Shown here: positions 6,224 to 31,364 of the stretch, one piece after another | Numbering within the stretch: position 1 is the stretch's first letter | Layout: each line of letters begins with the position of its first letter | NCBI GenBank assembly: GCA_030426945.1 | Contig: JAUHXL010000020.1 | Coordinates: 1-35,065, forward strand | Direction: 5' to 3' | Source of the DNA: a bacterium | GTDB lineage: Bacteria > Myxococcota_A > Bradymonadia > UBA7976 > UBA1532 | Length of the DNA stretch: 35,065 nt | Made by a program: the position numbers and the translations under genes | Notes under the pieces: model-generated | What the model was told of the DNA's origin: nothing | Databases searched by the model: none | The model's input: the letters and a program-made list of their open reading frames with translations, nothing else

Positions 6224-6304
<81 letters not shown>

Positions 6305-6402: not shown

Positions 6403-6479
<77 letters not shown>

Positions 6480-13851: not shown

Positions 13852-16269
13852 TTAACGACGGGCCGCGCCGCAGCGCGGTCCAGCCTGATCGGACAGCTCG
13901 GCGAGGCGATCGGCCACGCGCCGGTTGAGGGTACCCTCCGGGAAGCGGCCGAGGTCGTCGGCGTCGCCCACCGGCAGGTCGGTGACCCGCGCGAGCACGG
14001 CGTCGATGTGGCGGACGGACCAGACATGGAAGTGTCCGGCCCGGACCGCCTCGACCACATCGTCGTCGAGCTGCAGGTGCTCCTCGTTCGCCGCGGGGAT
14101 GACCACGCCCTGCGTCCCGTCGAGGCCGCGCACCCGGCACACGTGGAAGAACCCCTCGATCTTCTCGTTGAGGCCGCCGACCGCGTGCACCCGCCCCGTC
14201 TGGTCGACGGCCCCGGTCATCGCGACGCCCTGCCGCACCGGCACGCGCGCGATCGCCGAGAGCAGGGCCACCGCCTCGGCGAGCGACGCGCTGTCGCCGT
14301 CGAGCTCGTCGTGCATCTGCTCGAAGGCGAGGGTCGCGGCGAGCGCGGTCGGCGCGTCCGCCCGGTACCGGGCGCGCAGGTAGCCGGTCAGGATCAACGT
14401 CCCCTTGTCGTGCAGCCGCCCGGACAGCTCGACCTCGCGCTCCACGCTGGTGATGCCGTCGTGGCCGGGGGCGCAGGTGGCCGTGATGCGCACCGGCTGG
14501 CCGAAGGCGTGATCGCCGAGGTCGAGCACCGTGAGCGCGTTGACGCTGCCGACGCTGCGCCCCTCGGTGTGCACGTCGACGATGCCGCGGTCGATCACGT
14601 CGCGCAGGCGATCCTCGGGCAGCGCGTGGCGGTGCCGCCGGGCGTCGAGCGCGTCCTCGACGTGCCGGGCCGTGGTGGTGTCGGCCCCGCCGGTGCGGGC
14701 CGCGTGGCAGGCCTCGCGCAGGACGTCGGTGAGGTCACTGAAGCGCGTGGAGAGCCGATCCCGCCGGCCGGACAGGCGCACACCGAACTCGGTCAAGCGG
14801 GCGAGGGCCGCGTCCTCGAGGGGGGTCAGCCCCTCTTCGTCGATCACCCGGTGCACGTGCCCCGCGTAGATGCGCAGGCCATGCTCGTCGCGGGGCATCA
14901 CGTCGTCGAAGTCCGCCTTGATCTTGAAGATTCGGCGGAAGTCCTCGGTGCCCGCGTAGAGCATCCGGTAGAGGTCGTCGTCGCCCACCGCGATGACCTT
15001 GACCTCGATCGGCACCGGCTCGGGCTTGAGCGCGGTGCTGCCGCCATGGCCGAAGTACTGCTCGGGCGACTGGATCTCGAGCTCACGGGTCTTCAAGACG
15101 CGGCTGAGCGCGCGCCAGACGCCGTTCTCGACGACGGCGTCGTTGGCGTTGAACACCAGGTAGCCGCCGTCCGCGCGCAGGATCGAGCCGCCGCGGATGT
15201 CGTTGAAGTCGACGGTCGGTCGCGCCTCGTCGCTCGGGCGCTCCACGGTGCCGAGCAGGTTGGTGAAGGTCGGGAAGTTCTCGAACACCACCGGCGGTCC
15301 ATTGCCCGCGTGGTTGTCGAGCACCACGTTCACCCGCAGCGCGCGCGGCGGCTCCTCGCGCACCGGACCCTCTTCGTCGCTGTCTTCGGCGAACCGGTGA
15401 CGATGCTCGGCCACCCAACGGGCGGCCCGCTCGAGCCAGCGCGCGACCCCCTCGATGGGGTACTCCTCGAAGAGATCCGCGAAGGGCTCCGCGAGGCCCG
15501 TGCGGACCGCCTCGCTCTCGAGCTCGTCGACCTCGCGCTGCAGCTTGAAGACGGCGCGGCGCAGCTGACCGAGGAGGGTGCGCAGCTCGTCCTTCAGCTC
15601 GGCGTGGCGGCGATTTGTCTCGGCGAGGCGCGGCACACGGCCCTGGCCGGTGCGCGCGATGTCGTTCAGCTCGTCGATGTCGATCGGCTTGCGTTTCCAC
15701 ACCGGCATGATGTCGATGTGCTGCACGCCGCCCATCTGCACCTGGACCAGCGCGAACCGCTGCGCCTCGCAGCGGGCCTCGAGGTCGGCGAGCAGGCGCT
15801 CCTCGAGCTGCTCGATGTCGCGCTCGAGCGCTCGGCGGCGCTTGTCGACCGGATCGGCCTCGAGGAAGCGCCGGATCATCTCGGGCAGCTGCTCGACGAG
15901 GGCCTCGAAGTCGCGGCGCAGGCGGCGCGCGACGCCGCCGGGCAGCTCGAGCAGCCGCGGGCGGTCGGGATCGTCGAAGTTGTGGACGTAGACGAAGTCA
16001 CGCGGCGGGCGCGTGCGCTCCACCTCGGACTCGAGCAGCGTGCGCACCGTGGAGGTCTTGCCGGTGCCGCTCGGGCCGCAGACGAAGATGTTGTAGCCGG
16101 GGGAGCGCATCGCCAGCCCCAGGCGCAGGGCCTCGATGGCGCGCGCCTGGCCGATCAGGGTCGGGGTGCCCTGGGCGTCGCGCAGCGGCTTGAGGCTCGC
16201 CGGATCACAGCGCCAATGAAGATCGTCGGGCTCGAGGCGGCGCGAGGCGTCGCGGGGTGTGTGGGCCAA
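13852..16269 (-). CDS. Lon-like AAA+ protease (LonB/YcbZ-type, COG1067)
   Basis: An 805-residue ATP-dependent protease. Walker A is G-P-S-G-T-G-K71-T. A long helical insertion with coiled-coil character (about 110-280) follows, then the family motif G-G-Y-L-V-F-N-A-N-D. The C-terminal Lon protease domain has the catalytic Ser660 in G-D-S-A and Lys703 in N-E-K-I; the 43-residue spacing equals that of E. coli Lon (S679/K722). The N-terminal LAN domain of true Lon is missing, placing it in the COG1067 LonB-like group. The start is a TTG at 16269: an in-frame TGA lies about 14 codons upstream, no ATG or GTG intervenes, and GAGGGGAG precedes it. It lies 72 bases after the small riboswitch-led gene on the same strand and may share its transcript. 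Substrates are unknown. Confidence 0.93.
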   Translation of the reverse strand: MAHTPRDASRRLEPDDLHWRCDPASLKPLRDAQGTPTLIGQARAIEALRLGLAMRSPGYNIFVCGPSGTGKTSTVRTLLESEVERTRPPRDFVYVHNFDDPDRPRLLELPGGVARRLRRDFEALVEQLPEMIRRFLEADPVDKRRRALERDIEQLEERLLADLEARCEAQRFALVQVQMGGVQHIDIMPVWKRKPIDIDELNDIARTGQGRVPRLAETNRRHAELKDELRTLLGQLRRAVFKLQREVDELESEAVRTGLAEPFADLFEEYPIEGVARWLERAARWVAEHRHRFAEDSDEEGPVREEPPRALRVNVVLDNHAGNGPPVVFENFPTFTNLLGTVERPSDEARPTVDFNDIRGGSILRADGGYLVFNANDAVVENGVWRALSRVLKTRELEIQSPEQYFGHGGSTALKPEPVPIEVKVIAVGDDDLYRMLYAGTEDFRRIFKIKADFDDVMPRDEHGLRIYAGHVHRVIDEEGLTPLEDAALARLTEFGVRLSGRRDRLSTRFSDLTDVLREACHAARTGGADTTTARHVEDALDARRHRHALPEDRLRDVIDRGIVDVHTEGRSVGSVNALTVLDLGDHAFGQPVRITATCAPGHDGITSVEREVELSGRLHDKGTLILTGYLRARYRADAPTALAATLAFEQMHDELDGDSASLAEAVALLSAIARVPVRQGVAMTGAVDQTGRVHAVGGLNEKIEGFFHVCRVRGLDGTQGVVIPAANEEHLQLDDDVVEAVRAGHFHVWSVRHIDAVLARVTDLPVGDADDLGRFPEGTLNRRVADRLAELSDQAGPRCGAARR

Positions 16270-16341: not shown

Positions 16342-16662
16342 CTACTTGCCGAGGGCGGCGAGCAGGTCGTCCGCCGCGGGAGCCACGGCCGCGAAGGGGT
16401 GACTGTGCTGCGCGAGGAAGGTCACGGTGCGGCCACCCCGCAGGAGCACGGTGGTCCGGGTGTACCGCGGGCCGGCCTCGGTGGCGACGACCACGACGTC
16501 CGCCGGGGCGATGCCCGAGGGCAGGGCCACCGGATCGTCGAAGCTGAAGGTGACCTGGACGTCGCGGTCGAGATCGATGGGGCGCGCGGGCGGGGCCCCG
16601 AAGGCGGGCGCGCTGAGCGCGGTGACGGTCAACAGGGCGAAGAGGCGGCTGAGGGTGCGCAT
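16342..16662 (-). CDS. Small exported protein under a c-di-GMP riboswitch
   Basis: A 106-residue protein with a clear signal peptide (1 to about 23, ending A-F-G-A) and a mature part of about 83 residues rich in Val, Thr and Ala with short beta-strand-like stretches and no cysteine. I recognise no family. The ATG at 16662 has GGAG at 16672-16669, six bases upstream; that GGAG is also the 3' strand of the riboswitch P1 stem, so its output is probably set by c-di-GMP. It is followed on the same strand by the Lon-like protease gene. A periplasmic or surface role in the sessile/motile switch is a guess from the regulation only. Confidence 0.78.
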   Translation of the reverse strand: MRTLSRLFALLTVTALSAPAFGAPPARPIDLDRDVQVTFSFDDPVALPSGIAPADVVVVATEAGPRYTRTTVLLRGGRTVTFLAQHSHPFAAVAPAADDLLAALGK

Positions 16663-16668
16663 CGGTCA

Positions 16669-16759
16669 CTCCGGTTCGGTAGCTGGGCTGTCCCGCGGAC
16701 CGCGGGACCCCTGGCTTTGCGTCCCACCCTCGCGGGTGGTTTGCCGTTTCGTCGGGGAG
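16669..16759 (-). promoter_or_regulatory. Cyclic di-GMP-I (GEMM-I) riboswitch
   Basis: On the minus strand all hallmark elements of GEMM-I appear in order: GGCAAACC (16745-16738), helix CCACCC/GGGTGG capped by a GNRA loop GCGA (16733-16730), the signature GACGCAAAGCC (16723-16713), a second helix GTCCCGCG/CGCGGGAC, and the 3' element CTACCGAACC (about 16682-16673). CTCC (16759-16756) can pair with GGAG (16672-16669) as P1. That GGAG is the ribosome-binding site of the ATG at 16662, so ligand binding should hide it, suggesting repression of translation. Both G residues just before CAAACC are kept; A at the specificity position marks cGAMP-sensing variants, so c-di-GMP is the likely ligand. Mechanism and ligand are inferred; the class identification is secure. 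Confidence 0.9.
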
Positions 16760-17015
16760 GGCGGCACCACGCCGCCGCTCCAGGGTGATTCGGTCGTGCT
16801 GGGTGAGCAGTCGGCGGGTCGCGCCGGATCCCCGAGCCGCGTCGGGCTCGCCTGGGTGCAGGTGAACCCGGCCCGAAGGGGGCGAGGGTCGGGAAGGTGT
16901 CAAAAGGAAAAGGGAATCCGCCCGCGGGCGGTGGGCGGGTCGCGTCGGACCCCGGCGCGAGCCTCGACGCCCGATGGGCGATGTTCTAGATCGCAGGGCA
17001 GGACGAGGAGCGCGC
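16760..17015. other. Divergent spacer upstream of riboswitch and HDOD gene
   Basis: No gene is supported here. On the minus strand a hairpin GGCGGC/GCCGCC (16760-16776) abuts the riboswitch. A TTGACA hexamer on the minus strand (16903-16898) lies in an A-rich patch and could be the -35 of the riboswitch transcript, but I see no matching -10. On the plus strand GAGGAG at 17005-17010 is the ribosome-binding site of the HDOD gene. Confidence 0.4.
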
Positions 17016-18122
17016 GTGGGGAAGGTGACCTACCGAGGCGTCGGACTGGCGGCGCCCGACGCCGAGGCGATGGCGGGCCTGCTGGAGCGGGTGGACGGCT
17101 CGGGCGGCGCGTCCGTGCTGCTGTCGCGCCTCGACGACGGGGGACGCCGGGGCCTGCTGGAGCTGTTCTCGGCGGTCTTTCGCGCCGGCATGCACGCCGG
17201 CGTCGACGCCTCCATCGATCACCAGGCGCCGGCGCCCCCGCCGGCGGGCGAGCTCGGCGCGTCCGCCGCGCCGACCCCGCGGCCCGTTCGCACCCCGATT
17301 CAGGCCGTCGTCGAGCGCTTCCGCAACTCGGAGCTGACGTTGCCTCAGCTGCCCGAGGTGGGCGTCGAGCTCAACAAGCGCCTGACCGATCCCGACTTCG
17401 ACATCGCCAGCGTCGTCGAGCTGATCCGCCGGGACGCGACGCTGACCGCCAAGGTCATGGCCCTCGGCGCCTCACCGGTCTTCGCGGGGGGGGCTCGACC
17501 GCCGCGCTCGTTGCACGACGCCATCGTCCGCGTGGGCTCGCGGGAGCTGGTCAAGTACCTGATGGCCTTCACCAATCGCCGCCTGTTCTCGTTCAAGAGC
17601 TCGTCCGCGGCCGCGTCGATGCGCGATCTGTGGCAGCACAGCCTGGCCACCGCCGTCATGGCGGAGCAGCTGGCCGGGGAGGCCAAGGATCTGCACCCGG
17701 CGACCGCCTTCCTGCACGGCCTGCTGCACGACATCGGGCGCGCGCTGCTGCTGCAGATCTTCGATGAGCTGCCCGACGCACCCTACGGCCCCGACGAGGT
17801 GCAGCGCACCATCGACGCGCTGCACGGGCAGTTCGGCGCCACCCTGCTCAAGAAGTGGCGCTTCGACGAGTCCTTCGCCGAGGTGGCGATGTTCCATCAC
17901 CAACCGCAGAAGGCCTTCTCGAACCTCGAGATGGTGGCCGCGGTCGCGCTCGCCGACGTGGCGGCGTGTCGAATGGGGCTCGGCGACGAACAGCAGACCT
18001 TCGGGGACGAGGATCTCGCCCGGCACCCCTCGGCGCAGCTGCTGGGCATCTCCCCCGAGGCCCTCGACTTCGCGCAGCAGCAGGCGCGGCGCAACTTCGA
18101 CGCGATGGCCCAGCTGGTTTGA
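17016..18122 (+). CDS. HDOD-domain signalling protein
   Basis: A 368-residue cytoplasmic protein. Residues 1-85 are a helical N-terminal part I do not recognise, then a Pro/Ala linker, then an HDOD domain from about residue 95 with L-P-x-L-P-E-V and the H-G-L-L-H238-D239-I-G motif. HDOD proteins are non-catalytic relatives of HD phosphohydrolases used in bacterial signalling, often with c-di-GMP pathways and motility. The GTG at 17016 is favoured by GAGGAG five bases upstream; an in-frame ATG at 16974 has no such site. It diverges from the riboswitch-led gene, which hints at a shared signalling context. No output domain (GGDEF, EAL) is attached. Confidence 0.88.
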   Translation: MGKVTYRGVGLAAPDAEAMAGLLERVDGSGGASVLLSRLDDGGRRGLLELFSAVFRAGMHAGVDASIDHQAPAPPPAGELGASAAPTPRPVRTPIQAVVERFRNSELTLPQLPEVGVELNKRLTDPDFDIASVVELIRRDATLTAKVMALGASPVFAGGARPPRSLHDAIVRVGSRELVKYLMAFTNRRLFSFKSSSAAASMRDLWQHSLATAVMAEQLAGEAKDLHPATAFLHGLLHDIGRALLLQIFDELPDAPYGPDEVQRTIDALHGQFGATLLKKWRFDESFAEVAMFHHQPQKAFSNLEMVAAVALADVAACRMGLGDEQQTFGDEDLARHPSAQLLGISPEALDFAQQQARRNFDAMAQLV

Positions 18123-19734: not shown

Positions 19735-19922
19735 CTTTGGCCGAGTGTTTTTCGTGGAAGCATCGGACCTGTCGGGTCCCGCCGTGCGCGGCGGCCGGGC
19801 AGGGTGGCGTATCGGCCCGTATCCGACCGTTCGAGCCCGCAGCAGCGGCGCTCGGACGGCCCGCGCGGGCGTGAGCGATCGACGGCATCACGTCGGGTCG
19901 CGCGGCATTCGAGTTGCCCCAA
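19735..19922 (+). other. Long structured leader of the giant TPR gene
   Basis: If the promoter at 19699-19727 is right, the message has a leader of about 190 bases. It contains hairpins such as CCGCCG/CGGCGG (19779-19794, four-base loop) and GGACC/GGTCC just before it. No known riboswitch signature is seen, and there is no good ribosome-binding site before the ATG at 19923. Confidence 0.35.
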
Positions 19923-22900
19923 ATGGACAAGGACCTGGAGAGCTACCGCAGCCAGCTGGCGAGCAACCCGGACGACGCCGAGGCGCTCGCGAGGCTGGAG
20001 GCTGCGCTGCTGAAAGCCGGTGACTGGGACGGGCTGGTGGCCCTGACGGCGGAGCGGGTGGACGGGCTCGACCCCGCCGAGGCCGCGGACGCCTGGGAAC
20101 GCCTGGTGCTGGACCTCGTCGAGCACGGCGAGACGCTGGAGGATCTGTCCTCGGCGTCCCGGCTGGCGCTCGTCGTGGGTCGCGTCTACGACGTCCGGCT
20201 CGACCGCACCGACGAGGCGATGCTGAGCTTTCAGCGCGCCTTCCAGCTCGACCAGGCCAACGTCGAGGCCCTCGAGGCTGCCCGGGCGTCCTACGAGGTC
20301 CGCGGCAACTGGGAGCTGGTGCTGCAGCTCTACACGCTGCAGGCCCAGGCCACGGAGCACCCCGAGGCGCAGGCGGAGGTGCTGCTGGCGATGGCGGACG
20401 TCTGCCTGAACCGGCTGGACCGACCGACCGACGCCGTCGTGTGCGTCCGTCAGGCGTTGCAGCTGGTGCCGGAGCATCCGGGCGCCGCGCCCTACGCGGA
20501 GCTGCTCAGCTCGGCGGAGCGCGACGTCCTCGCGCGCGTCGAGGGCAAGGTGCGCGCCGCGGAGGCCACCCGCGATCCGCGCCAGCGATCGGCGCTGCTC
20601 GTCGAGGCGGCGGAGCTGGTGTTCCAGGTGACGCCCCACGACCCGCGCACCGAGACGCTGCTGCAGCAGGTGCTGGAGGCGGATCCACGCAACGAGGCGG
20701 CCCGCACGCTGTACGAGCAGTTCCTCGAGGCCAACGCGCGCTGGGCGGATCTGGTCGAGTACCTGGTCGGCCGGGCCGAGGCGACGGCCCGCAAGGGCGA
20801 CCGCCAGGCGATCTATCAGCGGCTCGCGCTGGTGGCGCAGAGCGCGATGGGGGATCCCGCCCAGGCGGTGAAGTGGCACCGCGAGGTGCTCAAGCTGAAC
20901 CCGGTCGAGCACGACTCGCTGAACTACTGCGTCGACTACTACAGCGAGCGCGAGCAGTGGCTGGATCTCGTCGAGGTCTACGAGGCGGCCCTGCGCACCC
21001 GGCACCGCGGCGGCAACGAGTCCGCGATGCTGGTGCAGATCGCGATGATCCTCTGGAAGAAGGTCGAGGATCTCGACGCCGCCGAGAACTACTTCAAGCG
21101 CATCAAGCTCAACGATCCCCGCAACGGGCTGATGCTGCAGTTCTACAGCGAGTTCTACCAGGCGCGCAGCGACTGGAAGCGCCTGCTCGGGGTGCTGGCG
21201 TCACGCCAGAACAACGAGACCTCGGTCGACGCCAAGATCGGCATCGGCCTCGAGATGGCCAAGGTGGCCGAGCACGAGCTGGGCAATCTCGAGAAGGCGA
21301 TCGACATCTGGAAGTCGATCCTCAAGCTCCAGGGCGAGCACGTGGTCGCGCGCGACAACCTGCGTCGCCTGTTTCACAGCACCGGCAAGTGGAACGCCCT
21401 GCTCGAGTTCCTCAAGGAGGACCTCAAGCTCGCCGCCGACGACGCGGTCGACGAGCAGGTGGGCATCTACGAGCAGATGATCGCGATCTACCGCGACCAG
21501 CTGAACCTGCCGGTGATGGTGATCAACACCTACAACCAGATCCTGCAGGTGGATCCCACCAACGCCGAGGCCCTCGACGCGCTGCAGCAGAAGTACGAAG
21601 CGAGCGCGCGCTGGAACGACCTGATCGGCATCCTGAAGCGGCGGGTCGACGCGGCGCAGGCCCGCGGTGACGAGGACGAGGTGGTCGCGCTCGACCGCCA
21701 GATCGCCCAGCTGTGGCTGGAGAAGTTCTCGAACCCGAACCAGGCGATCGAGTACCTCGAGGGCATCCTCGAGCTGCGGCCGGCCGACGACCAGGCCATC
21801 AGCCAGCTGATCGAGATCTACCGTCACCGCAAGGACTGGCGGGCGCTGTACGGCATCTACCGGCGCCAGCTGGAGCTGCTGACCGGCGACGCGCGGCTCG
21901 ACCGGATGGTCGAGATGGCTCGGATCGCCGCCAAGCGCCTCGACGAGAAGGAAGAGGCGATCGATCTCTGGCGGCAGGTGATCGAGGCCCGGCCCGGTCA
22001 GGCGAAGGGCTGGGACGCCCTCGAGACGCTGTACCAGAAGACGGAGCGGTGGGACGATCTCGCGCACCTGTACCGCGACCGCATCGCCGGGCTGGAGCCG
22101 GACGCGCGCGTCGAGCAGCTCAAGAAGCTGGGGGCGGTCTACGCGGAGCGCCTCGACGACGAGGCCCGGGCCGCGGACGCCTGGCGTGACGTGCTCGCCC
22201 TGCAGCCGGGGGAGCTGCACGCCGAGACGTACCTGCGCGAGCTGTACCTCCGGCGCGCCGACTGGGACGCGCTGACCGCCCTCTACGGCGACAAGGGCGA
22301 CTGGGAAGGGCTGGTGCGCCTGCTCGGTGGGGTGGCGGCCGACGCGCCCGACGTCGCCACGCGCGTGGAGCTCCTGCGCCGCATGGCCCAGGTCTGCCTC
22401 GTCGAGCTCGACAACGAGTCGGCCGGGGTGGAGTGCTGGGAGCGCATCCTCGACGAGGACGCCGACAACCTCGAGGCGGCCCGCACGCTGGGGCCGTACT
22501 ACGCGCGCACCGAGCAGTGGGATCGGCTGGTCGCGGTCTTCGAGGTCATCCTGCGCGACGACCCGGAGGATCCGGTCGTCGTGATGACCGATCTCGCGCG
22601 GGTGCACGAGCAGCACCGCGGCGACGTGGCGCTGGCCTACGGTTGGAACGCTCAGGCGCTGCACCGGGCCCCCGAGCGGGAGGGCCTGCTGGAGGAGGCG
22701 CGGCGAACGGCCGGCGCGAGCGGGCAGTACACGGAGCTCGCCGAGCTGCTCGAGTCGATGGTCGAGGAGGTCGACTCGGTCGAGGTGGAGGTGCGCCTGC
22801 GCCGTGTCCTGGCCGAGATCTGCGCCGAGGAGCTGGGGCGCAACGAGGACGCGGCCCTGCACTACGAGCGCGTCCGCGCCCTGGACGGGGACAGCGACGC

Positions 22901-25900
22901 GGTGCTCGCCGCGCTGGAGTCGCTGTATCAGAAGCTCGGCGCCTGGGAGCAGCTGCGCGCGATCTATGATCGGCAGCTCGACCGCGCGGACGAGCCCACC
23001 GATCAGGCGCGCATCCTCGTCGACATCGGGCGGCTGCACGAGACGGTGCTCGACGACGCCACCGAGGCGCAGGCGGTCTACGCTCGCCTGCGCGATCTCG
23101 AGCCGACGAACCTCGACGCCCTGCGGGGCCTGCAGCGGCTGGCCGAGCGCGCCGAGGACACCCGGGCGCTCGCGGATTACGTGGCCGCGGAGCTCGCCCT
23201 CGTCGACGCGCCGGCCGACATCGCGAGCCTGCGCTTCCGCCTGGGCCAGCTCGCGGAGCGGCAGGGCGAGCTCGAGGAGGCGCTCGAGGCCTTCGCCGAG
23301 GTGCTGTCGCTGGATCCGGAGCACATCGGCGCGGTGAAGGCCCTCGAGAACTTCCTCGACGGGGCGCTCGGCGCGCGCGCCGCCGAGATCCTCGAGCCCT
23401 ACATGCGGGCCCACGAGGAGTGGTCCAGCCTGCGGCGGGTGCTCGAGCTGCAGGTCGAGGGCAGCGATGATCCCGACTTCCGCGCCGCCCGGCTGCGTGA
23501 GGTCGCGGGCCTGCGCGAGCGGGCGCTGTCGGATCCGCGGGGCGCCTTCGACACCTGGCGCCGGCTGCTGGTCGAGGCCCGGGGCGACGCGACGGTGCGG
23601 GCCGAGATCGAGCGGCTGGCCGCGGAGCTCGCCGCCTGGGAAGAGGTCGCGGCGCTCTACGGGCGCTTCGCGATCGGCGGTGATCTGGCCGACGAGGACG
23701 CGGCGCTGAGCGCGCTGTACAGCCGGCGGCTGGCCGCGCTGCTCGAGGACCGACTGGCCCGCTTCGCCGACGCCCGCGCGACGCTCGAGGCGCTGCTGGT
23801 GGAGCAGGGCGACGATCTGGCCACGCTGGAGGCGGTCGATCGGCTGACCTCGCGGCTCGAAGACTGGCGCGGCCTCGTCGAGGTCTGTGAGCGCCGCCTC
23901 CCGCTGCTCGACGGGGCCGACGCGCGGGTCGAGACGCTCTTCCGCGTGGGTGATCTGTGGGAAGAGGTGCTCGACGAGCCGGAGAACGCGGTCGACGTGT
24001 ACCGCAGGGTGCTCGGGGAGCAGCCGGCCAACGAGCGCGCGCTGGCGGCGCTCGAGCGCATCTTCCGCAACGTGGGGCGGTGGCGCGATCTGGCGGATCT
24101 GCTCGAGGAACGCCTGGCGGACGCCGACGGTGAGGCGCGCATCCCGCTGGCCTTCCAGCTGGGTCAGGTGCTGGAGACGAAGCTCGACGCGCCCGACGAG
24201 GCGGTCGAGCGCTACGCCGACGTCCTGGCGCAGGCGGCCGATCACGAGCCGGCGATCGACGCCCTCGAGACGCTGCTGATGGACGACGCCGACGAGGCGC
24301 GCGTCCTGCGGCACCGCATCTGCGAGGTGCTCGAGCCCATCTACGCGGCCCGCGACGACTGGCAGTCCGGCGTCCACCTGCTGCAGGTGCGCCTGACGGA
24401 CGCGCGCACCGACGCCGAGCGCGTGGACCTGCACGCGCGCATCGCGCGCACCTACGAGGATCGCGCGGCTGATCCAGTGGCGGCCTTCGCCAGCTACGGC
24501 GCGGCCTTCGCCGAGGACTTCGGCAACGCGGACGTGCTCGCGCAGCTCGAGCGCCTCGCCGAGACCCTGGGCAGCTGGCCGGAGCTGGCCGCCGTGCTGC
24601 GCCGCGGGCTGGACGATCCGGAGCGGGCCGCCGCGCTGGATCCCGCGCTGCGCCGCGCGATGACCGCCCGGGTGGCGGCGCTCTACGAGGAGCGCGTGGG
24701 CGATCTGCACGAGGCCATCGCCTTCAACCGCCGGATGGTCGAGGAGGACGAGGCCGACGCCGAGGCGCTCGCGTCGCTCGACCGCCTCTACGGCCGCGTC
24801 GACGACGTCGAGGCGCTCGCCGAGGTGCTCGAGCGCCGCATTGACCTCACCCTGGACGCGCCGGCGCAGGCGGCCCTGTGCTTCCGGCTCGGCGCCCTGC
24901 TCGAGGAGCGGCTGGACCAGCCCGAGCGCGCCATCACGGTGTACCGGCGCGTGCGGATCGACATCGCCCCCGACGACCTGCGGGCCCATCAGGCCCTGGA
25001 GCGGCTGTACGCGGCCGCCGCGGACTGGGAGGCGCTCGTCGAGGTCGTGCTCGATCACGCGGAGCTGACCGAGGACGACGCGGGCACCATCGCGCTGCTG
25101 TTCCGCGCGGCCCGCACGTACGAGGACGCGCTCGACAACCCGGAGGCCGCGGTCGACGTCTACCGCCGGGTGCTGGCCATCGACGAGGCCCATCGAGACG
25201 CGCTGGCGCAGCTGGACCGCCTCTTCGGGCTGCTGGCGCGGCCGATCGATCTGCTGGACGTCCTGGAGCAGGAGCGGGCGCTGGCCCGCGACGACGCGGA
25301 GCGCAACGCCTTCGAGTACCGCATCGGTTGCCTGCAGCGTGACGCGCTCGGCGAGCTGTCGCGGGCGGTCCTGGCCTTCCAGGCCGTGCTGGCCCGGGAT
25401 CCCATGCACGCCGAGGCCCGCGGGGCGCTCGAGGGGCTGTTGGAGGCGCCGGAGGTGCGGCTCGAGGCGGCGCGCATCCTGGTCCCGCTGTACGAGGACG
25501 ACGGCGCCTGGCAGCGCCTGCGGGACACGCTGCACGGCACGCTGGAGGATCTGGACGATCCCACCGAGCAGGTCGAGACGCTGGAGCGCATCGCGACCAT
25601 CGAGGAGGCCTACCTCGATGATCAGGCGGGGGCCTTCGCCTCTCTGGCCGAGGCCTATCGGCGGGGCGAAGCCAAGGCCGCGCTGGAGCCGGAGCTGGAG
25701 CGCCTGGCGGATCCGCTGGGCAACCTGGCGGAGCTGGCCGATCTGTTCGCCGAGGTGATCCCCCTCGCGCCCGAGCGCGCGGTGGATCTGCATGTCAAGG
25801 TGGCGAACCTGGCCGAGCACCGGCTCGACGACGCCGAGCGCGCCATCGGGGAGCTGCGCGAGGTGCTGCTGCTCGAGCCCGAGAGCCGGGCGGCCCTCGA

Positions 25901-28900
25901 CGGCCTCGAGCGCCTGTACGAGCGAACGGGCGACGCCGAGTCGCTCGTCGAGGTGCTCGACCGCAAGGCGGAGCCGGCCGAGGACGTCGATGCGCGCAAG
26001 GCCCTGTTCCGGCGGATGGCCGGGATCCAGGAGGACGTCCTGGGGGACGCGGCGGCCGCCATCGACACCTGGCGGCGCGTGCTGGCCGAGGACGAGGCGG
26101 ATCTCACGGCGCTCGACGCGCTGGAGCGGCTGCTGGGTCAGACGGAGCGCTGGGGCGAGCAGGCCTCGCTCTTCGAGCACCGCCTCGGCATCGCCAGCAG
26201 CGGGGCCGCGCGCGCCGACATCGAGTACCGCCTGGCGCAGGTCTGTGAGGTCCGGCTGGCGGACGGGCAGCGCGCCCTGGATCTGTACCGGGCCGCGCTG
26301 GCCGAGGTGCCGAACCACCCGGGCACGCGGGAGGCGCTGGCGGGGCTCTTCGCGGAGCCCGCGCGGGCCGAGGCGGCGGGCATCGACCGCCTGCAGGTGG
26401 CGCGCATCCTGGAGCCCCTCTATCGAGCGGACGGCGACGACGCCGCGCTGGTGACGGTGCTGGACGTGCGGCAGGCCGCGCTGCTGGACGATCCCGTCGA
26501 GCGCTGCGCGCTGCTGAACGAGGTGGCGGAGCGCCGCGAGGGCGCGCTGGACGATCCCGAGGGCGCCTTCGATACGCGCGCCCAGGTGCTGGCCCTGATG
26601 CCGGAGGACGCGGACAACCGGGCCAGCCTGCACCGGATGGCGGAGCGCACGGGGCGCTGGGACGAGCTCGCCCTGCGCCTGGACGAGGCCGCCGCGGGCG
26701 CGTTGGATCCGGATCTCAAGGTGGCCCTGCTGTCGAGCCTGGGCCGGGTGCACGAGACGCGGCGGCACGACGACGCCGCGGCGCGGGACACCTACCGCGA
26801 GGTCCTCGACATCGAGCCCGGCAACCGCGCGGCGACCGAGGCGCTCGTCGAGCTGTTCTCCCGCACGGCCGCCTGGGAGGAGCTCGTGCAGCTCTACCTG
26901 GACCAGGCCGAGGCGTCGCTCGAGCCGGAGGAGCAGAAGGCCCTCTACTTCAAGGTCTGTCAGCTGCTCGAGGACGTCATCGACGACGTCGACCGCGCGA
27001 TCGCGACCTACCGCAAGGTGCTCGAGATCGAGCCCGACAACGCGCAGGCCTTCCAGGCGCTGGAGCGCTTCTTCGTTCAGCAGGGGCGCTGGGTGGATCT
27101 GGCCGAGCTGCTGCGCGACGAGATCCAGTACGCCGAGGCGGCGGACCAGCGGGCCGATCTTCGCCACCGGCTCGCCGAGGTGCTCGAGGCGCAGCTCGAC
27201 GATCTGCACGGCGCCGTCGAGGCGTGGCGGACCACGCTGACCGACGACGCGCCGGACCACGCGGCGTCGCTCGAGGCCCTCGAGCGCCTGCTGATCGAGC
27301 TCGACGACGACGAGGCGGCTCAGCGGCTGCAGGTGGCGGGCATCCTCGAGCCGATCTACGCCGACGCGGCGCGGTGGGACGACTGGGTCATGGTGATGGA
27401 GGTCGCCCTGACCTATCAGGATGATCGCTGGCAGCGCCTCGACATCCTCACCCGCATCGCCCGCACGCAAGAGGAGAAGCTCGCCGCGCCGGAGGCCGCC
27501 TTCGCCGCCTACAGCCGGGCCTTCGTCTTCGACTACGGCAACCCGGAGCTGCAGGCGGAGCTCGATCGCCTCGCCGCGCAGCTGGGCCTGTGGCAGGGGC
27601 TGGTCGAGACCTACCTGACCGGTATCGAGGGCTTCCAGGATCTCGACGCCGCCGTCGAGATCCTGGCCAAGGTGGCGCGCACCTTCGACGCGCGCCTGAG
27701 CGACGCGGATCGCGCCATCGAGTGTTACCGGCGCGTGCTGGCGATCGACGAGACGAACGCCGAGGCGCTCAACGCGCTCGAGCGCATCCTGGCCGCCGAG
27801 TCGCGGCACCAGGATCTGGTGACGGTGCTGTCGCGCAAGGCGGATCTCGCCCGCGACGTGATGGAGAAGAAGGAGCTGCTCTACCGGATCTGCGAGATCT
27901 GGGAGGAGGTGCTCGACCGTCCCGATCAGGCGATCGACACGTACCGGCGCATCTTCGAGGAGGATCCGGAGGACCAGAACGCGGTCGAGGCGCTCATCCG
28001 CCTCTACGAGCGGACGGCCCAGTGGGAGCTGCTCGTCGAGGTGCTGCAGGAGAAGCTCGACGCGGCCAACGACGACGAGGAGCGCAAGGCCATCCTGTAC
28101 CGGATCGCGCGCACCTACGAGGAGCAGCTGAAGGATCCGGACGAGACGATCCTGACGTATCGGTCGGTGCTCGAGTCGGATCCGACAGACCGCCGGGCGC
28201 TCGAGGCGCTCGACCGGCTGTACAGCCGCGAGGGCCGCTGGGGCGAGCTCATCGATCTGCTCGAGGGCGAGCGCGACGCCTTCGAGGGCGAGGACACCGC
28301 GCGGGCGGACGCCATCGAGCTGCGCATCGCCGATGTGCTCGAGCATCAGCTGCACCAGGTGGAGCAGGCCATCGAGCGCTACGGGGAGATCCTGAAGCGC
28401 CAGCCGGGGAACGCCGACGCGCGGCGCGCGCTGGAGCGTTTGCTGGGCGACGAGAGCCACCGCCTGACCGCGGGCCGCGTGCTCGAGCCCTACTACGAAG
28501 CGCAGGACGAGCCGGAGGCGCTCGCCCGCGTCTACGAGCTGCAGCTGCTCGACCTCGACGACCCTTCGGAGCGCATCGATCTGCTCAAGCGCCTCGCCGA
28601 GCTGCGCTACGCGGTGTTGAAGCACCCGCGGAGCGCCTTCGAGAGCTACGCGCGCGCGTTCCAGGAGGAGACGACCGATCCGGACGTGCTGCAGGCCCTG
28701 CACGACCTGGCCGACGAGCTGACCCTGCATGATCGGCTGGCCGATCTGTACCGCGACCGGGTGGCGCAGACCCTGGACACCGAGATCGCCCGGGATCTAC
28801 ACCGGCGCCTGGCCCGCATCTACGACGGCAAGCTGGACGATCATCGCGCGGCGGTCGAGTCGTGGCAGGCGGTGCTGAACACCGACAACTATGACCCGGA

Positions 28901-31364
28901 GGCCCTCGAGGCGCTCGACCGGCGCTACACGACGGCCGAGAACTGGCAGGCGCTGATCGAGGTGCTGCGGCGCCGCATCGACGTGGGCGGCGACGACGAC
29001 GGCTACGATCTGCGGTTCCGGCTCGGCTACCTGCTCGAGGTGGTCGAGGGGGACGTGGCGTCGGCCATCGACCTGTACCGCTCGATCCTCTGGGAGAAGC
29101 CGGATCACACCTTCAGCCGAGAGGCCATGGAGCGGCTGGCGGTCCACGTCGAGCATCGGCGCGCGATCGCCGAGGTGCTCGACCCGATCTACCGGGACGC
29201 CGCCCAGTGGGACAAGCTGGCGATCCTGACCGAGATGCGCATCGAGCTGAACGAGGATCCGCGGGAGCGCGCGCTGCTGTGGACCCAGTCGGCCCACCTG
29301 CGCGAGCAGGAGCTGAACGACTCGGACGCCGCGCTGATGTGCATGCTGCGCGCGCTGGACGAGACGCCGACCGACGAAGAGGTGCGCGGGGAGCTGGTGC
29401 GCATCGCCACCGAGCGCGGCGCCTGGGCGCAGCTGGCCGACGCCTTCGCGGCGAACCTGGACCGGGTCGAGGATCTCGATCTGCGGCTCGACGACAACCT
29501 GCGCATCGCCGATTGGTGCCGCGGGCGGCTGCGGGATCCGGGGCGGGCTGCGCAGCACTACCTGGCGGCGCTCGAGATCGATCCGGGCAACGAGCGGGCG
29601 CTCGACGCGCTCGACTCGCTCTACGAGCAGGCCGAGGACTGGGCCTCGCTGGCCGACATCCAGCGGCGCAAGGCCGACGCGCTCTTCGATCTCGACGAGA
29701 AGCGGGCCCGGCTGCACCGGCTGGCCGAGCTGAGCGCCGACAAGCTGGCCGACGCGGCGGGCGCGGTGGCGGCGTACGAGGAGATCCTCGACATCGACGA
29801 GACCGACGCGAAGGCGCTGCAGGCGCTGGAGCGGCTGCACGAGCGGGCCGAGGACTGGCCGGCGCTGGTCGGGGTGCTCGAGCGGCGGGCCGAGACGATC
29901 TACGACGGCGAGGCGTTGGCGCGCATCCACCGTCGGCTGGGCGAGCTGGCGCGGGATCGACTGGACGACGCGGCCCGCGCGGCCGAGGCCTTCGAGCGCG
30001 TGCTGGATCTCGAGCCCGACGCGCTCGACGCGACCGAGGCGCTGATCACCCTGTACGGGCAGCTGGCGAACTGGGCCGCGATGCAGGAGGTGCTGGTCAA
30101 GAAGCTGGCGGCCGTGGGCGACGATGATCGGGCGCGGCGGGCGGTGCTGTTCGCGTTGGGTGACAACGCGGAGACGGAGCTGGATCGACGGGACAACGCG
30201 ATCGAGTACTTCCGCCAGATCCTGGCCGCCCAGCCGGCGGATCGCGAGGCGCTCGACCGGTTGGTTCAGCTGTACGAGAGCACCGAGCGCTGGTTCGACC
30301 TGGTGCAGGTGCTGCGGGACCACCTCGAGGCCGTCGGCGACGCGATCGAGCCGGCCACACGGGTGCGCCTGCTGGTGCGCATCGCGGGCGTGGCCGAGGA
30401 GCACCTGCTCGACGCCGATCTGGCCATCGAGACCCTCGACGAGGTGCTCGAGGCGGATCCCGACCACGCGGGCGCGCTGAACGTGCAGGCGAAGCTGTAC
30501 CAGCGGTCGGGTGAGTGGGAGAAGGCGGCGGCGTTGCTGGAGCGGGCGATCGAGCACGCGGACGACGGGCCCGACCGCGCGGTGGCGTGGCGCAACCTCG
30601 GGTTGCTGTACCTGCGGCAGCTCGACCGCCCTGCGGACGCGCGCCGGGCGCTCGAGGCCGCCGTGTCCGACAGCGGCGACGCGCAGGCGCTCGAGGCCCT
30701 GCTCGAGATGGCGCGCGAGGCGGGGGACGACGCGACGGTGGCGAACCTGCTCGAGCGGCGGCTCGACCAGGCCACGGGCGACGAGCGGGTCGCGCTGCTG
30801 TCGGAGATCGCGACGCTGCGGGGCCGGGCGGGGGACGCGGTCGGCGCGGTCGTCGCGCTCGAGGAGGCCCATCGCATCGCGCCGGAGGACCTCGCCGTCG
30901 CCGACGCCCTGCTCGAGGCCTACTTCGACGCCGGGCGGCACGACGAGGCGGAGCCGGTTCTGCAGACCATCATCGAGCGGTTGAAGGCCAACCGTCGGTT
31001 CAAGGACCTCTTCACCTACAACTTCCGCATGGGCTGCGTGGCCGAGCAGCGCGGCGACGACGACGCCGCGCTCGACTACTTCACCCAGTGCTTCGAGTTC
31101 GACGCGACCTTCGTGCCCAACCTCGTCCGCCTCGGGCGACTGCACTTCCGTCGCGAGGACTGGGACAAGGCGTTGAAGACCTTCCAGACGGTGCTGCTGC
31201 ACCAGATGAAGCTGGATCGCGAGGGTCGGGTGGACGTCTTCTATCACCTCGGCCGGGTGCGTCACGCGCTGGGGGACGAGCGCAAGGCGAAGGACATGTT
31301 CAACCGTGCCCTGGCGCTGGACGCCGATCACGGGCCCAGCCGCGCGGCGCTCGACGCGCTCTGA
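19923..31364 (+). CDS. Giant tetratricopeptide-repeat protein (3,813 residues)
   Basis: One uninterrupted frame encodes a very acidic, soluble protein with no signal peptide and no membrane helix, so it should be cytoplasmic. Nearly all of it is about 50 consecutive units of about 72 residues, each a double TPR-like helical repeat of the form A-I-x-x-Y-R-R-V-L-x-x-x-P-x-x-x-x-A-L-x-A-L-x-x-L-Y-x-x-x-x-x-W-x-x-L. Every fourth or fifth unit is longer (85-98 residues) and contains a hinge motif (A/V)-x-x-(I/V)-L-(E/D)-P-x-Y; clear cases lie near residues 1154, 1468, 2161, 2473, 2850 and 3083, with a variant (L-V-P-L-Y) near 1850. TPR arrays bind proteins, so a scaffold is likely, but no partner or enzyme domain is visible. 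I start at the ATG at 19923; a TTG three codons earlier is the only upstream alternative. psd follows 16 bases downstream and is probably co-transcribed. Confidence 0.95.
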   Translation: MDKDLESYRSQLASNPDDAEALARLEAALLKAGDWDGLVALTAERVDGLDPAEAADAWERLVLDLVEHGETLEDLSSASRLALVVGRVYDVRLDRTDEAMLSFQRAFQLDQANVEALEAARASYEVRGNWELVLQLYTLQAQATEHPEAQAEVLLAMADVCLNRLDRPTDAVVCVRQALQLVPEHPGAAPYAELLSSAERDVLARVEGKVRAAEATRDPRQRSALLVEAAELVFQVTPHDPRTETLLQQVLEADPRNEAARTLYEQFLEANARWADLVEYLVGRAEATARKGDRQAIYQRLALVAQSAMGDPAQAVKWHREVLKLNPVEHDSLNYCVDYYSEREQWLDLVEVYEAALRTRHRGGNESAMLVQIAMILWKKVEDLDAAENYFKRIKLNDPRNGLMLQFYSEFYQARSDWKRLLGVLASRQNNETSVDAKIGIGLEMAKVAEHELGNLEKAIDIWKSILKLQGEHVVARDNLRRLFHSTGKWNALLEFLKEDLKLAADDAVDEQVGIYEQMIAIYRDQLNLPVMVINTYNQILQVDPTNAEALDALQQKYEASARWNDLIGILKRRVDAAQARGDEDEVVALDRQIAQLWLEKFSNPNQAIEYLEGILELRPADDQAISQLIEIYRHRKDWRALYGIYRRQLELLTGDARLDRMVEMARIAAKRLDEKEEAIDLWRQVIEARPGQAKGWDALETLYQKTERWDDLAHLYRDRIAGLEPDARVEQLKKLGAVYAERLDDEARAADAWRDVLALQPGELHAETYLRELYLRRADWDALTALYGDKGDWEGLVRLLGGVAADAPDVATRVELLRRMAQVCLVELDNESAGVECWERILDEDADNLEAARTLGPYYARTEQWDRLVAVFEVILRDDPEDPVVVMTDLARVHEQHRGDVALAYGWNAQALHRAPEREGLLEEARRTAGASGQYTELAELLESMVEEVDSVEVEVRLRRVLAEICAEELGRNEDAALHYERVRALDGDSDAVLAALESLYQKLGAWEQLRAIYDRQLDRADEPTDQARILVDIGRLHETVLDDATEAQAVYARLRDLEPTNLDALRGLQRLAERAEDTRALADYVAAELALVDAPADIASLRFRLGQLAERQGELEEALEAFAEVLSLDPEHIGAVKALENFLDGALGARAAEILEPYMRAHEEWSSLRRVLELQVEGSDDPDFRAARLREVAGLRERALSDPRGAFDTWRRLLVEARGDATVRAEIERLAAELAAWEEVAALYGRFAIGGDLADEDAALSALYSRRLAALLEDRLARFADARATLEALLVEQGDDLATLEAVDRLTSRLEDWRGLVEVCERRLPLLDGADARVETLFRVGDLWEEVLDEPENAVDVYRRVLGEQPANERALAALERIFRNVGRWRDLADLLEERLADADGEARIPLAFQLGQVLETKLDAPDEAVERYADVLAQAADHEPAIDALETLLMDDADEARVLRHRICEVLEPIYAARDDWQSGVHLLQVRLTDARTDAERVDLHARIARTYEDRAADPVAAFASYGAAFAEDFGNADVLAQLERLAETLGSWPELAAVLRRGLDDPERAAALDPALRRAMTARVAALYEERVGDLHEAIAFNRRMVEEDEADAEALASLDRLYGRVDDVEALAEVLERRIDLTLDAPAQAALCFRLGALLEERLDQPERAITVYRRVRIDIAPDDLRAHQALERLYAAAADWEALVEVVLDHAELTEDDAGTIALLFRAARTYEDALDNPEAAVDVYRRVLAIDEAHRDALAQLDRLFGLLARPIDLLDVLEQERALARDDAERNAFEYRIGCLQRDALGELSRAVLAFQAVLARDPMHAEARGALEGLLEAPEVRLEAARILVPLYEDDGAWQRLRDTLHGTLEDLDDPTEQVETLERIATIEEAYLDDQAGAFASLAEAYRRGEAKAALEPELERLADPLGNLAELADLFAEVIPLAPERAVDLHVKVANLAEHRLDDAERAIGELREVLLLEPESRAALDGLERLYERTGDAESLVEVLDRKAEPAEDVDARKALFRRMAGIQEDVLGDAAAAIDTWRRVLAEDEADLTALDALERLLGQTERWGEQASLFEHRLGIASSGAARADIEYRLAQVCEVRLADGQRALDLYRAALAEVPNHPGTREALAGLFAEPARAEAAGIDRLQVARILEPLYRADGDDAALVTVLDVRQAALLDDPVERCALLNEVAERREGALDDPEGAFDTRAQVLALMPEDADNRASLHRMAERTGRWDELALRLDEAAAGALDPDLKVALLSSLGRVHETRRHDDAAARDTYREVLDIEPGNRAATEALVELFSRTAAWEELVQLYLDQAEASLEPEEQKALYFKVCQLLEDVIDDVDRAIATYRKVLEIEPDNAQAFQALERFFVQQGRWVDLAELLRDEIQYAEAADQRADLRHRLAEVLEAQLDDLHGAVEAWRTTLTDDAPDHAASLEALERLLIELDDDEAAQRLQVAGILEPIYADAARWDDWVMVMEVALTYQDDRWQRLDILTRIARTQEEKLAAPEAAFAAYSRAFVFDYGNPELQAELDRLAAQLGLWQGLVETYLTGIEGFQDLDAAVEILAKVARTFDARLSDADRAIECYRRVLAIDETNAEALNALERILAAESRHQDLVTVLSRKADLARDVMEKKELLYRICEIWEEVLDRPDQAIDTYRRIFEEDPEDQNAVEALIRLYERTAQWELLVEVLQEKLDAANDDEERKAILYRIARTYEEQLKDPDETILTYRSVLESDPTDRRALEALDRLYSREGRWGELIDLLEGERDAFEGEDTARADAIELRIADVLEHQLHQVEQAIERYGEILKRQPGNADARRALERLLGDESHRLTAGRVLEPYYEAQDEPEALARVYELQLLDLDDPSERIDLLKRLAELRYAVLKHPRSAFESYARAFQEETTDPDVLQALHDLADELTLHDRLADLYRDRVAQTLDTEIARDLHRRLARIYDGKLDDHRAAVESWQAVLNTDNYDPEALEALDRRYTTAENWQALIEVLRRRIDVGGDDDGYDLRFRLGYLLEVVEGDVASAIDLYRSILWEKPDHTFSREAMERLAVHVEHRRAIAEVLDPIYRDAAQWDKLAILTEMRIELNEDPRERALLWTQSAHLREQELNDSDAALMCMLRALDETPTDEEVRGELVRIATERGAWAQLADAFAANLDRVEDLDLRLDDNLRIADWCRGRLRDPGRAAQHYLAALEIDPGNERALDALDSLYEQAEDWASLADIQRRKADALFDLDEKRARLHRLAELSADKLADAAGAVAAYEEILDIDETDAKALQALERLHERAEDWPALVGVLERRAETIYDGEALARIHRRLGELARDRLDDAARAAEAFERVLDLEPDALDATEALITLYGQLANWAAMQEVLVKKLAAVGDDDRARRAVLFALGDNAETELDRRDNAIEYFRQILAAQPADREALDRLVQLYESTERWFDLVQVLRDHLEAVGDAIEPATRVRLLVRIAGVAEEHLLDADLAIETLDEVLEADPDHAGALNVQAKLYQRSGEWEKAAALLERAIEHADDGPDRAVAWRNLGLLYLRQLDRPADARRALEAAVSDSGDAQALEALLEMAREAGDDATVANLLERRLDQATGDERVALLSEIATLRGRAGDAVGAVVALEEAHRIAPEDLAVADALLEAYFDAGRHDEAEPVLQTIIERLKANRRFKDLFTYNFRMGCVAEQRGDDDAALDYFTQCFEFDATFVPNLVRLGRLHFRREDWDKALKTFQTVLLHQMKLDREGRVDVFYHLGRVRHALGDERKAKDMFNRALALDADHGPSRAALDAL
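20208..31361 (+). repeat. Array of about 50 TPR-type units of about 216 bp
   Basis: The repeat is seen at protein level: units of about 72 residues aligned on A-I-x-x-Y-x-x-V-L and on a W-x-x-L about 36 residues later. The DNA copies have diverged, so this is an old array and not a recent tandem expansion. The last three units (from about 30800) and the first three are the most divergent. Confidence 0.8.

Follow-up and report, generated by a model that had tools for sequence, protein, structure and literature searches.

A c-di-GMP-I aptamer and its predicted ligand

How might a c-di-GMP riboswitch control its gene when the ribosome-binding site directly follows the aptamer? This question is raised by a leader on the minus strand of the window, by which we mean the whole stretch of DNA analysed (35,065 nucleotides). 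The source genome is a 7.6-Mb bin of 772 contigs, 76% complete, and the host family consists of relatives of the myxobacteria that are known mainly from metagenomes.

The aptamer is located at 16675-16755 (minus strand), where Rfam cmscan matches the window to RF01051 (c-di-GMP-I or GEMM-I) over model positions 1-87 of 87, with a score of 66.4 bits (E 4.6e-11). A preliminary description of this DNA had reported all conserved elements of the aptamer in order and had named a search with the Rfam c-di-GMP-I covariance model as the check; the assignment is borne out both by this match, far over the gathering score of 35 bits, and by a direct reading. The minus strand reads GGCAAACC-ACCC-GCGA-GGGT-GGGACGCAAAGCC ... 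CCGAACC-GGAG-TGACCG-ATG, with GCGA as the GNRA tetraloop of the first hairpin (between CCACCC and GGGUGG), and the second hairpin region is covered by the Rfam alignment. The match is not due to chance, as the aptamer is recovered at E 2.3e-12 when the whole genome is searched, with a single additional c-di-GMP-I copy on another contig. The model RF03167 (c-di-GMP-I-GGC) scores 58.4 bits on the window, just below its cut-off of 59, and RF01051 scores better.

The additional copy (L002 484-561, contig C340) precedes a 193-aa protein with no Pfam family. Paralogues of it are found in the relatives L003, L005 and L006, and loci of this type have a C-rich/G-rich P1, a start codon 39-87 nt downstream and a secreted protein of about 200 aa without a Pfam family. 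Loci from another family of the class (L004, L007, L008 and L009) carry a c-di-GMP-I aptamer with a GCUUCG/CGAAGC P1, and the genes behind them look like zinc metalloproteases, an HEVGH motif being visible by eye in L004.

The Rfam alignment places G16745, A16718 and C16679 (all on the minus strand) at positions that we take to be G20, A47 and C92 in the numbering of the Vc2 aptamer. In Vc2, the ligand's two guanines enclose A47, which is stacked between them. The spacing from G16745 to A16718 is 27 nt, the same as that of the G12/A39 pair in Vc1 (PMC4744006). GEMM-Ib RNAs are marked by an A in place of G20. The window has G at this selecting position, which indicates the c-di-GMP rather than the cGAMP type, and so do the six relatives closest to it. 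The 14 GGDEF matches in the genome make c-di-GMP synthesis plausible in the host. The RNA almost certainly senses c-di-GMP. It seems very improbable that the ligand is instead 3',3'-cGAMP, as for the GEMM-Ib switches known in Geobacter (PMC6456294), since the selecting base is not A and since the A20G change in a GEMM-Ib switch shifts selectivity from cGAMP to c-di-GMP (PMC6456294). The selecting G is a selectivity factor and not a hard filter (PMC9262584).

The regulated gene and its neighbours

The ORF behind the aptamer (16342-16662, minus strand) encodes a protein of 106 aa with a signal peptide, the latter judged by eye. Family searches with this protein gave no Pfam, NCBIfam or PDB match, which agrees with its earlier description as a small exported protein of no known family, and its AlphaFold model is poor (pLDDT 50.7). 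PilY2 (PF14481) was rejected as its family, the best E value being 0.062, in two of the five members, which is too weak.

Members of the protein family occur in 5/16 genomes of the order (the window's genome counted), the four homologues showing 32-48% identity to the window protein. Each of the five detected members is immediately preceded by a c-di-GMP-I aptamer that has GGAG or GGGAG at its edge, this motif standing at the equivalent site in L010, L011, L014 and L015, and the layout of riboswitch, Shine-Dalgarno sequence and ORF is kept in five genomes of the family. Within same-genus pairs the third codon position is the most divergent one, and GC3 is 0.90-0.96, which is what real genes should show.

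The downstream gene (13852-16269, minus strand) encodes a LonB/LonC-like ATP-dependent protease (Pfam AAA_32, LonB_AAA-LID and Lon_C) and is possibly co-transcribed with the small ORF. The gap between the two genes (16341-16270, minus strand) holds a block, approximately TTsGGyTAtkGAGGssCsCTT, that is conserved in four genomes and is possibly a separate promoter of the protease gene. The divergent upstream gene (16974-18122, plus strand) encodes an HDOD/HD-domain protein (Pfam HDOD, E 1.4e-38); it belongs to the context and lies outside the switch. Both the HDOD gene (judged by sequence) and the LonB-like gene are kept as neighbours in L010, L014 and L015. In L011 another gene follows instead, which by eye resembles the window ORF at 14060-12606. 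Elsewhere in the window are a 3816-codon ORF with many divergent TPR repeats (19914-31364, plus strand; Pfam TPR_1, TPR_7 and TPR_8 in the first 1200 aa) and two identical tRNA genes about 100 bp apart (6230-6301 and 6406-6477, plus strand), tRNA-Gly(GCC) by sequence.

The Shine-Dalgarno sequence and P1

Directly behind CCGAACC stands the Shine-Dalgarno sequence GGAG (16669-16672, minus strand), 6 nt ahead of an ATG that itself lies 12 nt behind the aptamer. It had already been proposed as the ribosome-binding site of the ATG at 16662; on direct reading, CTCC (16759-16756), GGAG (16672-16669) and ATG (16662-16660) all lie where they were then placed. The extent then given to the switch (16669-16759) locates these elements properly and leaves out the 5' hairpin of the leader (16781-16756). 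In the window and its orthologues alike, the Shine-Dalgarno sequence is inside or adjoining the aptamer structure, which is the arrangement of direct occlusion.

This overlap between the Shine-Dalgarno sequence and P1 is not confined to the window and is found in many phyla. The pattern of a c-di-GMP-I core with CCGAA-N0-4-GGAG at its end was sought in 85,000 species genomes, which yielded at least 120 stretches spread over many phyla; in a second scan, 12/379 Myxococcota genomes contained it. We speak of direct-SD loci where GGAG is followed at 3-12 nt by a start codon and the ORF has 50 codons or more. There are 81 of them among the matches listed, or 65 once near-copies are removed, and 61 have a recognisable junction and can be scored. 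Complementarity between the 5' flank and the Shine-Dalgarno strand is far above that of shuffled flanks (Stouffer -11.5, 65 loci among the matches listed).

The register of P1 was examined with the junction C-G/G-C pairs as anchor: the first four bases outside these pairs were compared with the first four after CCGAA, and the partners were permuted, kinship being handled solely by the removal of near-copies. Among the 61 listed loci, the paired fractions at positions 1 to 4 are 0.70, 0.74, 0.74 and 0.77 in the real set and 0.49, 0.61, 0.56 and 0.66 in the permuted one (p 0.001, 0.001, 0.001 and 0.002, respectively). The signal is lost when the strands are slid by +1, +2 or -2, and part of it is left at -1 (same 61 loci). 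Because the four covarying bases are mostly GGAG, P1 pairs with the Shine-Dalgarno sequence across the group, and on this covariation the masking of the ribosome site by P1 is a design that the group shares. Where listed loci have a matching GGAG and lack a start codon nearby, P1 is just as good, so translational control is not proved by P1 pairing alone.

Two sets of loci stand out. The Actinoplanes-type loci (L017, L027, L039, L073, L081, L105, L109, L113, L115, L123, L124 and L126) have GGAG directly behind the aptamer; as their complementary 5' strand is absent (GGTACCCGAACA), they must work differently. The clostridial loci (L049, L058, L093, L096, L097 and L119) precede the gene of an exported protein (about 265 aa), and their P1 5' strand is to a large extent covered by the 3' arm of the 5' hairpin; L049, L093 and L097 have two aptamers in tandem.

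As for the window itself, the 5' side of the junction is closed by C-G at 16750-16751 (minus strand), which pair with C16678 and G16677 and are homologous to the closing pairs of the RF03167 consensus. Following one A.C mismatch, the covarying register then gives the pairs G16753-C16673, C16754-G16672 and C16755-G16671, i.e. a P1 5' strand CCG (16753-16755, minus strand) and a 3' strand CGG (16671-16673, minus strand) that shares the two G at the start of the Shine-Dalgarno sequence. P1 is only 3 bp long beyond the junction pairs, and in L010, from the same genus, CCG/CGG is shifted by one base. This register is the most likely one, having covariation and the lowest energy on its side: with the aptamer pairs fixed, the full 5' hairpin with the junction pairs and CCG/CGG comes to -56.9 kcal/mol, the lowest of the options, against -54.7 kcal/mol for the aptamer with the full 5' hairpin and -51.0 kcal/mol for the inner hairpin with CUCC/GGAG (-51.5 kcal/mol when the junction pairs are included).

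The preliminary description had P1 contain the ribosome-binding site by pairing CTCC with GGAG. The first part stands, as the Shine-Dalgarno sequence is within the P1 3' strand; the pairing is not supported. CTCC/GGAG is rejected as the main P1 of the window, being two steps out of the covarying register, less favourable than CCG/CGG (-51.5 versus -56.9 kcal/mol) and absent in L010, where CUCC is missing. The window's own P1 complementarity, CTCC/GGAG included, is moreover at chance level in a GC-rich flank (duplex -5.8 kcal/mol versus -6.5 kcal/mol for shuffled flanks, p ~0.6); it is significant only in the orthologues L014 (=L147, p 0.003) and L015 (=L082, p ~0.01). The canonical register in L014, L015 and L011 is CUCC(U)/(A)GGAG, and from the sequences CTCC/GGAG is the right pairing for these relatives rather than for the window.

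The 5' hairpin

In the window, the CUCC formerly given to P1 is the end of the 3' arm of a predicted 5' hairpin and abuts the P1 5' strand. This hairpin (16756-16781, minus strand) folds as GGAG-C-GGCGGC-GUGGU-GCCGCC-CUCC, with 10 bp and one bulged C. Its predicted energy is -19.7 kcal/mol (z -2.50 relative to dinucleotide shuffles, p 0.017), and the upstream GGAG 16781-16778 is the partner of CUCC 16759-16756 at P 0.995 in the predicted ensemble. The earlier view that the switch has no separate expression platform is therefore too strong, the CTCC being 99.5% paired in a 10-bp hairpin of a kind that recurs in the group. As the last hairpin base immediately precedes the P1 5' strand, the hairpin can stack on P1. 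A hairpin ending at the same place is found in L011, L014 and L015 and in the order-level relative L016; the MAFFT alignment of seven related leaders misaligns the 5' hairpins, and for this reason we claim no column-wise covariation for them.

Across the 65 direct-SD loci among the matches listed, the stability of the 5' hairpins exceeds that of shuffles (mean z -1.06, Fisher p 1e-10) and also that of the hairpins in 37 loci where no start codon is near (mean z -0.28; Mann-Whitney p 2e-4). The statistic used is the hairpin energy; an alternative, the probability that a fixed strand of 7 nt is paired, was weaker overall and badly placed for the window. In 50/65 direct-SD loci the hairpin also takes up three or more P1 bases, which suggests competition between hairpin and P1, but the same holds for 22/37 controls (matches listed in both cases).

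Competition of this kind could amount to strand exchange: CUCC 16759-16756 would pair with the Shine-Dalgarno GGAG when the ligand is bound and, without ligand, with the upstream GGAG 16781-16778, a Shine-Dalgarno look-alike, thereby freeing the ribosome site and again giving an OFF switch. The two GGAG do compete for a single CUCC, the hairpin being almost completely formed in the free ensemble, and L014, L015 and L011 combine the canonical P1 with a hairpin whose 3' arm contains its CUC. The hairpin stability and the contested P1 bases in direct-SD loci fit this scheme as well, but contested bases are common in the controls. We nevertheless consider strand exchange unlikely in the window, where CUCC/GGAG departs from the register that covaries, is not shared with L010 and costs 3.7 kcal/mol relative to the hairpin. 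Real upstream flanks, furthermore, leave the Shine-Dalgarno sequence no more accessible than shuffled flanks do (fold model, p 0.88), so a role of the 5' hairpin as an antisequestor that frees the site in the ligand-free state finds no support. The hairpin is a real feature and may be a stacking platform, a competitor or a stabiliser of the leader.

A proposed model of the switch

The reading that we favour is that the window is a translational OFF switch for c-di-GMP acting by direct occlusion. It seems probable on the model developed here, and the OFF sign, which the preliminary description had also predicted, would follow from the anatomy, with the Shine-Dalgarno sequence in the 3' strand of P1. 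At high c-di-GMP, the ligand would bind at the three-way junction and would stabilise the adjacent P1 helix, an effect for which the literature offers Vc2 as the example; that translational OFF switch depends above all on how stable P1 is (PMC9262584). With the Shine-Dalgarno sequence itself forming the 3' strand of P1, the 30S subunit would then be unable to load and the small exported protein would not be made, while at low c-di-GMP P1 would open and translation would start. In keeping with this, a scan for intrinsic terminators and sigma-70 promoters found nothing between the aptamer and the ORF. The short P1 of the window (most likely CCG/CGG with the junction C-G/G-C pairs) abuts the 10-bp 5' hairpin, which is probably stacked on it. 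In L014, L015 and L011, hairpin and P1 share bases, and the hairpin may be a competing arm there.

Fold models agree with direct occlusion in the relatives. When the junction pairs are forced shut, pairing of the Shine-Dalgarno sequence reaches 0.98-0.99 in L015, up from 0.16-0.40, and 0.93-0.99 in L014, up from 0.12-0.67. These gains are partly built in by the junction constraint, and the shift is smaller, from 0.74 to 0.92, when L015 is given more upstream sequence (as L082). A large computed shift is seen in only 13/61 loci among the matches listed, and such nearest-neighbour models contain neither ligand nor tertiary contacts. For the window (L150), mean pairing is 0.75 in the free and 0.72 in the closed model, with no ligand-like shift, because two G of the Shine-Dalgarno sequence can also pair with CCG ahead of the ATG. 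As far as these models go, the absence of a shift is a real gap in the window's case. The chance-level complementarity of its P1, with an A.C mismatch as the first pair, also counts against the reading.

The same free-state pairing, which engages CCG 16665-16663, could also be read as an ON switch in which the ligand-free structure hides the Shine-Dalgarno sequence and c-di-GMP frees it, GEMM-I aptamers acting ON or OFF according to their platform (PMC9262584). We hold this to be highly improbable, as the free-state helix has 3 bp only and as the Shine-Dalgarno sequence of the bound form is a P1 strand beside the ligand pocket.

That P1 is weak in the window, where modelled pairing of the ribosome site hardly changes, would also suit a functional c-di-GMP switch that bypasses this site, through ligand-dependent RNA stability or Rho-dependent termination within the ORF, the overlap then being a by-product of a short leader. 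Vc1 provides a precedent, being a published c-di-GMP-I switch without a recognisable terminator or anti-Shine-Dalgarno sequence (PMC4744006). Conservation of both the overlap and the spacing in five genomes and many phyla, together with covariation of the P1 pairs, speaks against such a by-product and makes this explanation distinctly unlikely.

Significance and comparison with known systems

In the accessible literature, translational control by c-di-GMP riboswitches is represented by a single example, whose ribosome site lies far from the aptamer. The compact form, in which P1 is the Shine-Dalgarno strand, makes P1 register, 5' hairpin and ligand binding addressable in a leader of about 125 nt. 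It would also provide a predicted link between c-di-GMP and an uncharacterised secreted protein that is conserved beside a LonB-like protease gene. We tentatively raise the possibility that the window belongs to a widespread and undescribed variant of c-di-GMP-I, acting by direct occlusion, in which the Shine-Dalgarno sequence is the P1 3' strand and a dedicated 5' hairpin, which abuts the P1 5' strand or overlaps it, tunes P1 or competes with it. If this is true, some members of a large class of switches for second messengers would join the direct-occlusion group.

The components are not new. The window aptamer is an ordinary family member, and both translational OFF control by c-di-GMP-I (Vc2) and direct occlusion (SAM, preQ1) are already known. 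As far as the accessible literature shows, their combination across many phyla is a variant not found there, and an earlier mention of a P1 overlapping a Shine-Dalgarno sequence is possible. The 2024 review that defines the direct-occlusion group names no c-di-GMP class in it and treats c-di-GMP under strand exchange (PMC10907184). Members of that group (SAM-II/V, SAM-III, SAM-SAH and preQ1-I/II) resemble the window in having the ribosome-binding site in or beside the ligand fold, with aptamer and platform fused (PMC10907184), whereas their aptamers differ from c-di-GMP-I. Among c-di-GMP-I RNAs, the c-di-GMP-I-GGC model (RF03167) is the best-scoring one for L011, L014, L015 and the second genome copy L002, but not for the window. 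Cd1 of C. difficile shares the aptamer family but has a transcriptional platform and lacks P1 (PMC9262584); no terminator was found between the aptamer and the ORF of the window. The closest comparison is with Vc2 of Vibrio cholerae (RF01051, translational OFF), which has the aptamer family and the selecting G in common with the window. In Vc2, as summarised in PMC9262584 citing Inuzuka 2018, P1 stability is regulated and the ribosome-binding site is masked in the OFF state, and the same is predicted for the window. The masked site of Vc2 is, however, distant from the aptamer, whereas in the window the Shine-Dalgarno sequence directly follows CCGAACC and is the P1 strand itself.
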